Origin: Skermanella mucosa
Lineage (GTDB): Bacteria > Pseudomonadota > Alphaproteobacteria > Azospirillales > Azospirillaceae
Length of the DNA: 64,000 nucleotides
Direction of reading: 5' to 3'
NCBI RefSeq assembly: GCF_016765655.2
Contig: NZ_CP086106.1
Location: forward strand, 5,850,501 to 5,914,500
Part shown: positions 53,969-58,271 of the stretch, piece after piece
Numbering within the stretch: position 1 is the stretch's first letter
How the letters are laid out: every line of letters begins with the position of its first letter
Position numbers and translations under genes: made by a program
The notes under the pieces: model-generated
The model's database searches: none
What the model was told of the DNA's origin: nothing
The model's input: only the letters and a program-made list of their open reading frames with translations

Positions 53969-54226
53969 ATGGAGAACGAGGATCTGGAGAAGGACGCGGG
54001 CGACAGGCTCGAGATGGAACGGCGGAAGTTCCTGGGACAGTGCGGGCGTTTCGCGATCGCCACGCCGCCGGCGATCACCCTGCTGATGTCGACCAGCCTG
54101 ACGTCGCAGGCGATCGCCAAGTCGGGCGGCAAGGGCCATCCCGGCAACGGGTACGGCCACGGCAACGGCCAGCATGGCGGCGTTCCCGGAAATCCCTGGA
54201 AGAACCACGGCGACAAGTACCGCTGA
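53969..54226 (+). CDS. Small Tat-like peptide rich in Gly/His/Asn, candidate substrate of the adjacent enzymes
   Basis: An 85-residue protein. A charged start (MENEDLEKDAGDRLE) leads into RRKFLGQCGRF (from residue 18) and a hydrophobic stretch with ATPPAITLLMSTSLTSQAIA, which looks like a twin-arginine signal. The last 35 residues (GHPGNGYGHGNGQHGG...) are low-complexity Gly/His/Asn/Pro. The gene is followed 48 bp later by a PqqD-HprK fusion. This architecture fits a modified, exported peptide, by analogy with HPr-rel-A systems; it remains inference. It is preceded by an AT-rich promoter region (53880-53920). Confidence 0.7.
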   Translation: MENEDLEKDAGDRLEMERRKFLGQCGRFAIATPPAITLLMSTSLTSQAIAKSGGKGHPGNGYGHGNGQHGGVPGNPWKNHGDKYR

Positions 54227-54274
54227 AGCCTCCCGGCCCCGTTTCGAGACGCACCAGTGCAGGGAAACCATCTG

Positions 54275-55387
54275 ATGATCGCCGAGGGCGTATCCCTTGC
54301 CTCCATCGGCGGGCACAGGGTGCTCTTCCACGAGGCCAGGCAGGAACTGTACGAACTGGACGACGGGATGGCGTTCGTCTGGAACCGCCTGACCGAGGGG
54401 ACCGCGATCGACCGCATCGCCGAAGAGGCGGCCGGTCGCGGCCTGCCCGAGGGGCAGGTGCGCGCCTGGCTGGACCATGCCGTCTCGGAATGGACCCGCC
54501 TGGGACTGCTCCGGCCGGCGGCCCTCCGCCAGCGACTGAGTATCGGCGGGGTCCGCATCGAGATCCGCTACGCGACCGCCGCGCTCGCGGAGTTCGTCGC
54601 ACCCGGCTTCAGCCATCTGGAGGCGGAGGACGGACCGGACGGTCAAGACGGCTGGGCGGCTGATTGCCAACTCGACTTGGCGGAGGAGGACGGCGCGACC
54701 GTGATCCGCCGCGGCGCGGCCGACCTGGCGACCTGCCGGCGGGACGAGATCATACCAGCATTGAGGGGAGCCCTCACCCTGGAGGCTGTCGGACGGGGAC
54801 GCCACGAGGTGGCGCTCCATGCCGCGACGGTCGCCGCGGGCGGTCATGCCCTCCTGCTCAGCGGCTGCCCGGGGGCCGGCAAATCGACGCTGGCCGTGGC
54901 GCTGGCCTATTCCGGCCTGGGCCTCGCGGGGGGCCTCGCGGGGGGCCTCGCGGGGGACGACGTCGCCCTGCTGGGCGCCGACGGGCGGGTGACGGGACTG
55001 CGGTTCGCGCCGGCGCTGAAGCCCGGGTCGTGGCCGCTGCTGGCGGGGATGCGTCCCGACCTGCTCGACCTGCCGGTCCATGTCCGGTACGACAGCCAGG
55101 GGGTCCGTTTCCTCGACGGCGTGCCTGCCGCCGACGACGGCCCCCTTCCGGTCCGCTGGATCGTCAGCCTCGACCGCCGCGACGGGGCCGAACCCGCGCT
55201 GCGGCCGCTGGACCCGCTGGAAACCCTGCGCGACCTGATCGGCGGCGCCGCCTCCGCCGACGACCGCCTGGGCACGAAGGCGTTCCACGCCCTGGCCCGC
55301 GTGCTGGATGGGGCCGGGTGCCATCGGCTCACCTATTCGCGGCTGGACGACGCCGTGGCCCTGCTGGCCGGGTTATGCGGGTCATGA
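54275..55387 (+). CDS. PqqD-like domain fused to an HprK-related kinase
   Basis: A 370-residue fusion. Residues 1-~85 resemble a PqqD/RRE peptide-binding domain (LYELDDGMAFVWNRLTEGT, WTRLGLLRP); residues ~170-370 are an HPr-kinase-like P-loop domain with Walker A GCPGAGKST (197-205) and a DDVALL motif that fits the HprK core. Tandem 12-bp repeats add GGLA copies between them. In related loci (HPr-rel-A type) PqqD and HprK are separate genes; here they are joined. It could phosphorylate or otherwise modify the small peptide encoded upstream. ATG 54275 is preferred over GTG 54257 because AGGGA precedes it. Substrate unknown. Confidence 0.85.
   Translation: MIAEGVSLASIGGHRVLFHEARQELYELDDGMAFVWNRLTEGTAIDRIAEEAAGRGLPEGQVRAWLDHAVSEWTRLGLLRPAALRQRLSIGGVRIEIRYATAALAEFVAPGFSHLEAEDGPDGQDGWAADCQLDLAEEDGATVIRRGAADLATCRRDEIIPALRGALTLEAVGRGRHEVALHAATVAAGGHALLLSGCPGAGKSTLAVALAYSGLGLAGGLAGGLAGDDVALLGADGRVTGLRFAPALKPGSWPLLAGMRPDLLDLPVHVRYDSQGVRFLDGVPAADDGPLPVRWIVSLDRRDGAEPALRPLDPLETLRDLIGGAASADDRLGTKAFHALARVLDGAGCHRLTYSRLDDAVALLAGLCGS
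54921..54956 (+). repeat. Three 12-bp tandem repeats in the HprK-like domain
   Basis: GCCTCGCGGGGG is repeated three times without a mismatch, coding GLAG-type loops just after Walker A. The reading frame is kept, so copy-number change would lengthen or shorten the loop before DDVALL. Confidence 0.95.
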
Positions 55388-56385
55388 CGAAGATGACCGC
55401 CGCCTCCCGGTTCGACGCCCTGGTCTCGTGCCTGCGGGGACGGCCGCCGGCCGATGCCGACTGGGTCGGCGTGGTCGAGGAGGCGAACCGCTATCTGGTC
55501 GTTCCCGCCGTCCGGGCGGCGCTGGCCGGATGGGCCGGGCCGGAGGTTCCGCGGGACGCCCGGGATTACCTGGACTTCATCCACGGGCGGAACCACGAGC
55601 GGAACCTCAGGCTGCGCGCCCAGGCGGTCGAGGCGGTCGAGGCGCTGAACCGCCGCGGCATCGTGCCGACCCTGCTGAAGGGAGCCTGCACGCTGCTGAC
55701 CGCGGCCGAGGACCGGCTGGGCGACCGCATCCTGTGCGACCTGGACATCCTGGTCCCGGAGGACGGGGTCCCGGCCGCGCTGTCCTGCCTGTCGGCGATC
55801 GGCTACGAGGTCCAGCCCGGCGAGGCCCAGGACCACGCGCCCGCGGCGCTGGCGCGGCGGCGGGACGTCGGGATGATCGACCTGCATGTCCGGCCGCCCG
55901 GTCCGGCCAGGTTCCACCACCCCGGCAGGCTCGCCCGGAGCGGCCGCGTCCTGGCGGTCGGGGCGACCGGCCGGGCCGTGCTGCCGAGCCCGGAGTTCCG
56001 GGCGCTGCACCTGATCGCGCACGACATGTTCCACGACAAGCTCTACCTGAGCGGCGACTTCGAGCTGAGGCGCCTGGTCGACCTGGATGGAATCGTCAAG
56101 GCCCATCCCGGCCTCGACTGGAAAGAGGTCGCCGCCCTGCTGGACGGCCGCGCGGCCCGGCACGCCCTGGAGGCCCAGCTGGTGGCGCTGCGGTCCCTGC
56201 TCGGCGCCAACGTCCCCGCCGTCCCCCTCAGCCACGCCGTTCCCCACTTCCAGCACTGGCGCCGCCTGCAACAGGCCCGGCACCCGGGTTTCAGGACGTT
56301 TCTGCGGGGGATCTACCGGTCGTCGCGACGGCTGGGGGGCGGCGGGACGCGGGGATTGCTGACGGAGCCCCCCGGGGGACTGTAA
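55384..56385 (+). CDS. Nucleotidyltransferase-family protein (NTP_transf_5-like)
   Basis: A 333-residue protein of the type found next to PqqD/HprK pairs. LLKGACTLL (97-105) and CDLDILVPEDG, with the DxD metal motif at residues 119-121, fit the nucleotidyltransferase fold; downstream DVGMIDLHVRPPG and LIAHDMFHDKLY are typical of the family. The ATG overlaps the stop of the PqqD-HprK gene (ATGA), so the two are translationally coupled. It may nucleotidylate a peptide, protein or small molecule; the substrate is unknown. The C-terminus is close to the IS at 56510. Confidence 0.8.
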   Translation: MTKMTAASRFDALVSCLRGRPPADADWVGVVEEANRYLVVPAVRAALAGWAGPEVPRDARDYLDFIHGRNHERNLRLRAQAVEAVEALNRRGIVPTLLKGACTLLTAAEDRLGDRILCDLDILVPEDGVPAALSCLSAIGYEVQPGEAQDHAPAALARRRDVGMIDLHVRPPGPARFHHPGRLARSGRVLAVGATGRAVLPSPEFRALHLIAHDMFHDKLYLSGDFELRRLVDLDGIVKAHPGLDWKEVAALLDGRAARHALEAQLVALRSLLGANVPAVPLSHAVPHFQHWRRLQQARHPGFRTFLRGIYRSSRRLGGGGTRGLLTEPPGGL

Positions 56386-56566: not shown

Positions 56567-57931
56567 TCAGGGGGCATAAGCGGCGGCCTGGACGAGCCTG
56601 ACGTAGACGGTGCGAGGAATTTGGACGGTTTCGCCGGGATCCAGGGCTGTGACGAAATTCAGGTCGGTCCACAGGGCGATGCGTACGGCAGCCAGGGCGT
56701 CGGCGAAGGTCGGGGCGGTCTTGGGGTACCAGGCCGCCCGGCGCGGGGTCAGGTCGAGTTGGCCGGCGAAGGCCTGGACATGGAGCGCGACCAGCGAGTA
56801 CAGGCCGAACAGCACCGGGGTGGTGCGGAACACCGCCTTGTCGGCGTGCTGGCGCTGGGTCTCGACGCCGAGGTGGGCGCGCGCCTCTTCATAGGTGAGT
56901 TCCATCAGCCAGCGCCTGGAGAACCAGCCGAGGATGACCAGCGGGTCGGCCGTCAAGTCGGTGCACGCCAACGCGTCGGGGTCGCGCTTGGACCCGGGAT
57001 AGCGCACCAGGATCCAGCGGACCGCGACCGGCGGCTCCCCCGGGTGGTGCCACAGCGCGGTGCCGGAGATGAACTCCGCCTCCCGCGCGTGGCGACGCCC
57101 GGTGCGGACCAGCAGGGCGAAGCGCTGCCAGGGCTCGCCCGCGTCGTGCCGCCGCTTGGCCAGCTTGGTTTGGGCCTTGCCCTTGGTGGCGGGCCGACCG
57201 CCCCGGCCGGGCGGGCGCGGGGCCGGGAAGTCGAACAGCCGGGCGTCCAGGCGGAGCCGGGTCACCACGGTCATTGCGCGGCCCAACTCGCGCAGCAGGC
57301 CGACCGAGGCGAACTCGCCGTCCATCACCGCGACCATGGCGCGCCCCGGCAGCCAGCGCCGCACCAGGCGCAGCAGGCTGAGCGCCCACGCCGTGACCGG
57401 CCGGTATCGCCGGCCCTCGGCCTGGCAGAAGGCTTGGCTCGGCGCCAGCGCGCTGAGCATCGGCAGCGCCCAGACCTTGCGGGCGAACGGCACCTCGGCC
57501 AGCAGCATGGCCGAGACCCAGCGCAGGCCGCGGCTGGTGACCTTGCGCCCGCGCGAGGAGCGCACCGGGTCGTAGTAGTGTGCCGCCGGCCGGACCCGGG
57601 GACCGCGCCGGCGCTCCAGGGTGTGGTCGAGCCCGACCACCACCGGGCCGAGCGGGGCGAACACGCGCACCAGCGCCCGGGTGAGCCGCCGGGCCAGCGC
57701 CAGCCCGGACCACACGTCGCGGCTGAGCACCCGGTGGAAGGTGGCGAAATCGGCCCGTCCGGCCAGGCCGAGCGCGCGTAGCGCGCCGGCCACGGTGCGC
57801 GGGCCAAGCGCCAGCAGGGCGCCGACCGCCAGCGCGGCGGCCTGGGGCCGGCAGGTCGGCGAGAACACAGCGAGCGCCGGGGCGAGCCAGCGGCAGAACG
57901 CCTCGGGCAGCGGCGGGTCAGGGCGGTCCAT
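56567..57931 (-). CDS. DDE transposase of the IS (IS4/IS701-superfamily-like)
   Basis: A 454-residue transposase. Candidate catalytic residues are Asp in VVVGLDHTLERR, Asp in VAVMDGEFASVG and Glu in LTYEEARAHLGVETQRQ. A basic insert (PAPRPPGRGGRPATKGKAQTK) lies in the middle, as in DDE_5/IS701 types. Start MDRPDPPLPEAFC follows GAGGGGACC. The frame is intact, so the element may still be active. Confidence 0.9.
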   Translation of the reverse strand: MDRPDPPLPEAFCRWLAPALAVFSPTCRPQAAALAVGALLALGPRTVAGALRALGLAGRADFATFHRVLSRDVWSGLALARRLTRALVRVFAPLGPVVVGLDHTLERRRGPRVRPAAHYYDPVRSSRGRKVTSRGLRWVSAMLLAEVPFARKVWALPMLSALAPSQAFCQAEGRRYRPVTAWALSLLRLVRRWLPGRAMVAVMDGEFASVGLLRELGRAMTVVTRLRLDARLFDFPAPRPPGRGGRPATKGKAQTKLAKRRHDAGEPWQRFALLVRTGRRHAREAEFISGTALWHHPGEPPVAVRWILVRYPGSKRDPDALACTDLTADPLVILGWFSRRWLMELTYEEARAHLGVETQRQHADKAVFRTTPVLFGLYSLVALHVQAFAGQLDLTPRRAAWYPKTAPTFADALAAVRIALWTDLNFVTALDPGETVQIPRTVYVRLVQAAAYAP

Positions 57932-57989
57932 GGTCCCCTCCGGGCGGTTGGAGTGTTGGACCCAACAGTCCCGCCCCGCGGAGATCGCC

Positions 57990-58271
57990 ATGGCCGCCAA
58001 GACCGACCCCGTGCTCCAGCGCATCCACGCCCACCCCTGGCCGCAAGGTGGCGTCCGCGCCCGGCGCGCCGGTCACGGCTACTCGCTGGTCAGCACCCGC
58101 ACCGGCGCGCCGGTCGCCCGCCTGTGCCCGACCGGCGAGGACGACGAGGTCGAGGTCCTCTGGTGGCGACGCGACGCCTGGGGACCCGCCGGTCCCTTCG
58201 GCGCCATCATGCCCCTTGATGACGCCCTCGACTTCATCGCCGAGGAACCCTTCTTCTGGATCAGGGCCTGA
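57990..58271 (+). CDS. IS passenger gene, unknown function
   Basis: A 93-residue protein (MAAKTDPVLQRIHAHPWPQ..., DDEVEVLWWRRDAWGPAGPFG, PLDDALDFIAEEPFFWIRA) divergent from the transposase and inside the inverted repeats. It resembles small host-like ORFs carried by certain IS elements. GGAG precedes the ATG by about six bases. Family not recognised. Confidence 0.7.
   Translation: MAAKTDPVLQRIHAHPWPQGGVRARRAGHGYSLVSTRTGAPVARLCPTGEDDEVEVLWWRRDAWGPAGPFGAIMPLDDALDFIAEEPFFWIRA

Follow-up and report, generated by a model that had tools for sequence, protein, structure and literature searches.

A compact unit of three genes in Skermanella mucosa, encoding a small peptide, an HPr kinase (HprK)-like kinase fused to a PqqD domain and a nucleotidyltransferase (NTase), is one instance of a set of parts in which the two enzymes and small export-tagged peptides travel together through alphaproteobacterial genomes. 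The unit occupies positions 53969-56385 of the window, that is, of the whole 64,000-nucleotide stretch analyzed here (assembly GCF_016765655.2, contig NZ_CP086106.1, positions 5,850,501 to 5,914,500), and the enzyme pair probably makes a family of modified secreted peptides by a chemistry that is seemingly undescribed. We put at roughly 60% the probability that it is a minimal tailoring system like those of ribosomally synthesized and post-translationally modified peptides (RiPPs), in which phosphorylation guided by a RiPP recognition element (RRE) would be followed by NTase-dependent elaboration, and in which a signal resembling that of the twin-arginine translocation (Tat) pathway would double as the leader. 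Computation shows which domains and catalytic residues are present, that the peptides and the enzymes are co-distributed, and that the leader is constant whereas the core varies.

A preliminary description of the window had already pointed out the three genes, and the observation was confirmed (Table 1). They are read on the same strand in the order peptide open reading frame (ORF), fusion and NTP_transf_5 protein. The peptide, with its twin-arginine-like motif and its Gly/His/Asn-rich tail, was found as described; its gene is preceded by GGAGAGG, which ends four bases before the ATG, and is followed by a spacer of 30 or 48 bases, depending on the start assigned to the fusion. The stop codon of the fusion overlaps the start codon of the NTase gene in the ATGA reported earlier, and an alternative in-frame ATG for the NTase is located upstream, at 55375.

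Table 1. Features of the three-gene unit, in window coordinates (aa, amino acids)
Feature	Position	Strand	Remarks
Precursor-like peptide	53969..54226	+	ATG start, 85 aa; acidic start, ERRKFLGQCGRFAIATPPAITLLMSTSLTSQAIAKSGG Tat-like leader, Gly/His/Asn-rich core
Leader segment, aa 18-53	54020..54127	+	RR.FL..CG[RK]FA..TPP..T.LL.T...A.A.SG; from per-position conservation
Ser52 codon	54122..54124	+	Second residue past the putative AIA cleavage site; candidate acceptor hydroxyl
PqqD-HprK fusion kinase	54257 (GTG) or 54275 (ATG)..55387	+	From ORF, profile, model and fold searches
PqqD/RRE domain	54275..54535	+	About residues 1-87 from M54275; PF05402 match over residues 16-78, sub-threshold
HprK-related kinase domain	54794..55375	+	TIGR04352 match over residues 174-367; H182, K203, D228, D229
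12-bp tandem repeat, 3.2 copies	54919..54956	+	Adds 8 aa (GGLAGGLA) just ahead of D228-D229
NTP_transf_5 nucleotidyltransferase	55384..56385	+	333 aa; PF14907 match

The genome collection was scanned with the peptide motif alone, CG[KR][FL]A[IVL][AV][TA]PP, which gave at least 80 stretches, 49 of them confirmed as loci; 40 of these loci were used to reach genomes, the other nine lying in genomes already represented. Both enzymes were present within the fetched flank (at most 6 kb) in 31 of the 49 peptide loci, arranged around the peptide in six different gene orders, and a search of the whole genomes of the 40 peptide carriers found the kinase in 39 and a PqqD domain in the same chain in 38. 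Fusion of PqqD with HprK is normal for this branch and no peculiarity of the window. Nine carrier genomes have no enzyme beside any peptide locus found, and in eight of these the fusion is encoded elsewhere, the exception being G332. Carriers usually possess one kinase (G337 has two), whereas peptide matches, counted at E ≤ 1e-5 and including a few fragments, number one in 14 of the 40 genomes and two or more in 26, with a maximum of 11 in a Bradyrhizobium. In the genus of the window itself, two congeners with the peptide also have the fusion, and two without the peptide lack both.

The same association was seen against two backgrounds. In a sample of 289 genomes of the class, the peptide was found in nine (a count that includes G319, the matches of which are doubtful, being ORFs of 530 and 396 aa at places that differ between searches), a PqqD-plus-kinase chain in seven (that of G283 being split across two contig ends) and both in six, linked within about 2 kb in five and unlinked in G102. 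In the family of Bradyrhizobium sp. 141 (163 genomes), the peptide was found in 12 genomes and a full-length fusion in 13, with 12 in common, and four further genomes gave a kinase-only match; when the five genomes of the bait set were removed from this family, the fusion was still present in 7/7 peptide-positive genomes. The chain is present in 6/9 peptide-positive genomes of the class sample versus 1/280 others (p 7.6e-10), and the fusion in 12/12 peptide-positive genomes of the family versus 1/151 others (Fisher p 2.7e-17), p-values that overstate independence because some of the genomes are close kin; the patchy distribution within one family is a stronger argument than either. Equal coordinates mark probable duplicates between the carrier genomes and the class sample (G325/G192, G328/G110 and G332/G135). 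The preliminary description had staked its proposal on co-occurrence of the peptide with the enzymes in other genomes, and on this point it survived.

The identity of the fusion was examined with an alignment of 22 kinases, the window's included. Over positions 9-97, the profile of this alignment matched, among solved structures, the lasso-peptide RREs TbiB1 (E 2.3e-7) and TfuB1 (1.3e-6); over positions 173-240 it matched HPr kinases (4.7e-7 and 9.8e-7). The active-site residues of the kinase (catalytic His, P-loop Lys and Asp-Asp) align with those of HprK, and H182, K203 and D228 are invariant and D229 nearly so in the 22 sequences, which is the H-K-D-D set of HprK and the lasso kinases. All 22 matched TIGR04352 at E ≤ 1e-5 (best 6.9e-33), and 16 matched PF05402 at E ≤ 0.01. 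An AlphaFold2 model of the window's fusion has a mean predicted local distance difference test score (pLDDT) of 89.3; a Foldseek search with it placed phosphoenolpyruvate carboxykinases at the top (to E 7.6e-7) and also returned HPr kinase/phosphorylase (HprK/P; 1.9e-4) and the TbiB1 structure that contains its leader peptide (8.3e-4, root-mean-square deviation 1.7, template-modelling score 0.84 by target length). The profile and fold matches to TbiB1 strongly favour an RRE identity for the N-terminal part, and the fusion recognized in the preliminary description is borne out by both kinds of search. A Pfam Mg_chelatase match to the fusion, over its cut-off, covers only 30 residues around the P-loop and was taken as a cross-match.

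The two domains are not always arranged in this way. In MAG51 (L105), PqqD and the kinase are two adjoining ORFs, in the fashion of the HPr-rel-A loci considered below, and in G333 PqqD is a separate ORF neighbouring the kinase. A natural single chain of NTP_transf_5, PqqD (just under the Pfam cut-off) and HprK is encoded at 505-2706 of L149 (genome G233). The chain encoded at 909-3353 of L239 combines a tubulin-tyrosine-ligase (TTL)-like ATP-grasp domain, PqqD and an HprK-like kinase, and is possibly another RRE-kinase tailoring enzyme.

The NTP_transf_5 assignment made earlier is firm: the window's NTase scored 99 bits against PF14907, over the 31.2 cut-off, all members of an alignment of 18 NTases matched this family at E ≤ 0.001, and these 18 sequences share D119 and D121 without exception and D166 almost without. 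The model of the NTase (pLDDT 87.2) resembles MenT1 (top match) and the ANT(2'')-Ia nucleotidyltransferases, with TglT/MenT3 lower, and gave a weak fold match to FKRP (E 0.03-0.07), one entry of which was solved with a cytidine diphosphate (CDP)-sugar alcohol and a sugar acceptor; the NTase profile matched nothing at E ≤ 0.1 among PDB sequences. The NTases of the window and of the congener locus L037 are missing residues at the C-terminus that are present in relatives of other genera.

A chance ORF is ruled out for the peptide by its conservation in the two congeners (89% and 84% identity) together with a nonsynonymous-to-synonymous ratio (pN/pS) of 0.16-0.34 over leader residues 1-53, calculated from the window and the two congeners with few changes. 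No family of Pfam, NCBIfam or PADLOC matched the window peptide, and no convincing family of Pfam or NCBIfam matched the members of an alignment of 50 peptides. In this alignment, which was made without a filter on the RR-like motif or F21, R18, R19, F21, L22, G26, A29, P33 and P34 are invariant; RR and FL are present in 50/50, A at position 48 in 48/50 and A at position 50 in 44/50. A wider conservation table was drawn from 100 peptide matches, of which 90 are distinct and 83 were kept, those at E < 1e-10 and with the loose motif [RK][RHQK].F, absent from three of the 100. In the 83 peptides, RR, FL, G26 and P34 occur in all, C25 in 76, T32 in 80, A48 in 80 and A50 in 76, a conservation that is partly by construction, since C25-P34 fell within the scan motif and the filter demanded an RR-like pair and F21; the conservation of RR and F is likewise seen in the unfiltered alignment. 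Outside both the motif and the filter, position 40 is Leu in 79/83, and position 52 is Ser in 80/82 and Thr in 1/82 (Ser in 48/49 and Thr in 1/49 of the unfiltered alignment).

The residue preceding Ser52 is variable (2.89 bits), and the sequences diverge behind Ser52, where the core types comprise GNNG[FWY]GNG..DG.P, amphipathic PNWLERFLDWLF, His- or Lys/Gly-rich stretches and Thr-Ala repeats; long variants of about 146-186 aa carry the same leader. A constant leader with a variable core is the pattern of RiPP precursors. Weak matches to TIGR04117 (Cys-Xaa-Xaa-Xaa repeat radical SAM target protein) were obtained with 13 of the 50 aligned peptides (best E 0.011), from which other RiPP precursors may carry similar leaders. 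At 1112-2023 of L078, on a contig of G102 other than that of the kinase, three small peptides that contain Cys are encoded in tandem; their leader is a related one (RRAFLHKAAKVG.VTP.AVTMMLAAG). In the Bradyrhizobium loci L220 and L222, a short GNNG-type peptide and a long one (about 165 aa) with the same leader lie about 3 kb apart, with genes read as H-NS-like and LuxR-type regulators between them, and comparable pairs occur in other Bradyrhizobium genomes. The core of a Microvirga peptide (L139, 5968-6240), GNNGVGNGVDPQPPGNPPVNDGPGT, resembles a motif that we take to be that of large secreted repeat proteins.

Beyond these three parts, little recurs. In an all-against-all comparison of ORFs of at least 60 aa from 72 loci in grouped genomes, the kinase was found in 23 genome groups, the NTase in 22 and the peptide in 21, and no fourth conserved gene emerged: besides antisense frames of the three, no real family extends beyond about 6 groups. 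Genes read as H-NS-like and sugar-synthesis genes recur in Bradyrhizobium and its near kin.

In the mechanism that we propose, the front end of the peptide would be both a twin-arginine export signal and a leader recognized by the enzymes, to which the PqqD domain of the fusion would bind. In the cytoplasm, the HprK domain would phosphorylate a precursor hydroxyl, the best guess being Ser52, because this is the sole near-invariant hydroxyl outside the signal, or alternatively a conserved Ser/Thr of the leader. The NTase would then add a nucleotidyl or sugar moiety onto the phosphate, the role that PsmN seems to have in pseudomycoidin. The finished peptide would be exported by the Tat machinery and its leader cut off by ordinary signal peptidase I, an arrangement that would account for the lack of a recurring protease or transporter family at the loci. 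Among the rhizobial relatives, many precursors at scattered sites would depend on a single enzyme pair.

Several observations weigh against this reading. The window's fusion scored 68.6 bits (E 4.6e-19) against TIGR04352 (HprK_rel_A), short of the 200-bit cut-off, and 17.7 bits (E 0.0047) against PF05402 (PqqD), short of the cut-off of 23.4, and had no match to TIGR04353 at E ≤ 1 (cut-off 35 bits); the TIGRFAM search suggested in the preliminary description yielded the kinase family below its cut-off and nothing for TIGR04353. The kinase of the window may also be altered, since the GGLAGGLA insert beside its active site is not in the other 21 aligned sequences, including those of the two congeners. 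The co-distribution has exceptions in both directions. In the Bradyrhizobium sp. 141 family, no peptide was detected in G728, which has a divergent fusion, or in G674, which has a partial kinase match; in the class sample, G228 has a fusion without a detected peptide, its PqqD-HprK part being joined to a TTL-type ATP-grasp domain in a chain that may be another system. Conversely, the peptide occurs without the kinase in G135 (apparently the same genome as G332), in G142 and in the doubtful G319. As to the export route, the leader looks Tat-like from the RR.FL motif alone: the TIGR01409 Tat model was matched by one of the 50 aligned peptides, weakly (best E 0.014), and the Pfam Tat models at E ≤ 0.1 by none of them. 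Moreover, C39-peptidase exporters of the ATP-binding cassette (ABC) type are encoded in L132 (6483-8807, - strand), at a distance of about 260 bases from the peptide, and in L031 (14850-16952, - strand), at about 4 kb from it, so that a dedicated exporter is possible at some loci.

The acceptor residue is subject to similar reservations. Ser52 is not singled out, because further hydroxyls of the leader (T32, T37, S41, T42, S43 and S46) are conserved too, and no C-terminal Ser is conserved in the peptides, unlike in lasso substrates. The first Ser/Thr of the HPr-rel-A precursors is found at +2, +3 or +4, and a control for Ser/Thr behind other Tat signals comprised one and two sequences, too few, none of them with Ser/Thr at +2. 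More generally, the leader binding, the acceptor residue, the chemistry, the Tat route, the order of steps and the function of the product are points that we infer, the chemistry by the analogies that the literature on lasso kinases and NTases supplies.

An alternative of low probability is that the kinase and the NTase control export, reversibly modifying hydroxyls of the signal region and thereby gating the Tat route, while the mature peptide stays unmodified. In its favour, the signal itself contains much of what is conserved, Thr/Ser at 32, 37, 41-43 and 46 included, and classical HPr kinases have a regulatory function. The bufferin authors also offer the speculation that the signal peptide stays hidden behind a partner protein for as long as modification is unfinished (PMC12452194). 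However, the peptide-acting HprK homologues described in reviews make lasso modifications, the conservation of Ser52, outside the signal, is close to that of the signal core, and the NTase has no obvious regulatory place.

It is likewise improbable that some of the leader-bearing proteins are scaffold or surface proteins, which would be modified, for example with a sugar phosphate, for attachment to the envelope or to exopolysaccharide. The long variants with the same leader would suit such a role, as would the weak match of the NTase to FKRP and the gene read as a sugar-transferase-like exopolysaccharide gene near the enzyme pair at two of the three peptide-free enzyme loci read (L227 and L229). 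On the other hand, sugar-synthesis genes recur just in the Bradyrhizobium group and near kin, and the FKRP match is distant. The top rank of MenT1 in the fold search, with TglT/MenT3 lower, might also point to a toxin-antitoxin or defence module, in which the NTase would be a MenT-like toxin and the kinase or the peptide its partner; this is very unlikely, since the aminoglycoside nucleotidyltransferases have the same fold, two NTases of the family had no PADLOC match at E ≤ 0.01, the PADLOC matches of the kinase cover about 20-40 residues at the P-loop, and such a module fits poorly with the fixed RRE-kinase pairing and the many scattered export-leader peptides per kinase. The remnant of a lasso-peptide cluster is the least credible explanation, for although the RRE, the HprK-like kinase and the NTase also occur in kinase-type lasso clusters, the cores lack a conserved C-terminal Ser, and neither a B2 leader peptidase nor an Asn-synthetase-like cyclase is among the neighbour families shared between groups at the 72 loci (no model search or genome-wide search for them was made).

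Two observations concern neighbouring ORFs. A 485-aa ORF, transposase-like by reading, lies behind the NTase gene of the window (56567-58024, - strand), and the L031 stretch contains two small ORFs that, by reading, start in the manner of double-glycine leaders.

The earlier interpretation of the locus is supported, with these amendments, and RRE-guided tailoring of an exported peptide remains the reading that we prefer. If it is true, HPr-rel-A, which is named from hidden Markov models and chemically blank, and an unannotated family of export-leader peptides become one testable pathway, with predictions of what the substrate and its leader are, which residues are candidate acceptors and in what order the steps take place. 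The bufferin-type RiPPs, which bear signal peptides, would also be joined by a branch based on phosphate chemistry, with carriers that include Sinorhizobium and Bradyrhizobium. It is tempting to go further and to propose an undescribed class of exported phosphate-based peptides, phosphoglycosylated or nucleotidylated, in which the Tat signal is the RRE leader, one enzyme pair serves up to about eleven scattered precursors and the HPr-rel-A systems are cousins; we advance this fuller proposal tentatively, at somewhat less than even odds.

The window's fusion shares the P-loop kinase core and the catalytic residues of HprK/P, the substrate of which is Ser46 of HPr, and differs from it in having an RRE and an NTase partner. 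The kinase- and NTase-containing lasso clusters (paeninodin PadeK, ThcoK and SyanK; pseudomycoidin PsmK/PsmN) share the RRE, the H-K-D-D kinase and an annotated NTase with the window system, which differs by its export-type leader; PadeK and PsmN were compared by description. PadeK, ThcoK and SyanK are reported to use the H-K-D-D set to phosphorylate precursor peptides on their C-terminal Ser (PMC9266682, PMC8498205); the set is said to be essential in lasso kinases (PMC9266682), and PsmN, annotated as a nucleotidyltransferase, is needed for the addition of one or two hexoses to the phosphate of pseudomycoidin (PMC9266682, PMC8498205). The bufferins and other RiPPs modified by multinuclear non-heme iron-dependent oxidative enzymes (MNIO) similarly have precursors that bear an export signal, and the bufferin authors state, as a preliminary result, that this signal is part of the recognition by the RiPP enzyme (PMC12452194). 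By contrast, their signal is of the Sec type, and they employ an iron enzyme, another partner protein and a mostly Cys-based chemistry.

The HPr-rel-A systems provide the closest parallel in parts, and, as the preliminary description held, they have similar parts as separate genes. The names HPr-rel-A, HprK-related kinase and HprK_rel_A (NCBIfam) were found in no paper by our literature search, and nothing on a pairing of kinase, NTase and peptide appeared in the material it returned, which consisted mostly of listings, with passages including those of PMC7470986. Proteins over the TIGR04352 cut-off occur in 43/299 genomes of the phylum. Among 30 HPr-rel-A loci, a TIGR04353-like PqqD was found in 23 and a leader-bearing protein upstream of the kinase in 18, the leader model having been built from 12 seed stretches, eight of them from the scanned loci, so that 10 of the 18 matches are non-seed; 12 of the 30 loci gave none. 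The NTases of these cassettes exceeded the PF14907 cut-off in 5/5 tested, and the separate PqqD proteins the 35-bit cut-off of TIGR04353 in 4/4 tested (55.9-62.7). A leader-bearing protein, PqqD, an HprK-like kinase and NTP_transf_5 are all present, as in the window cassette, and the leaders, with the layout RRR.L.K......(V/A)P.[VI].TL......A.A (for example RRRKLIKGLALCAPMVVTLRPGAALA), are built similarly to those of the window type, in the order twin Arg, P.[VI].TL and A.A. On the other hand, PqqD is a separate gene there, the precursors are mostly larger and the kinases exceed 200 bits, as against 68.6 for that of the window, whereas the window branch is characterized by short peptides with the leader RR.FL..CG.FA..TPP, often in several copies per genome. 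Because the window kinase fails the TIGR04352 cut-off, the system is regarded as a related variant, apparently a branch of the HPr-rel-A architecture in which PqqD and kinase are fused and the peptides small.

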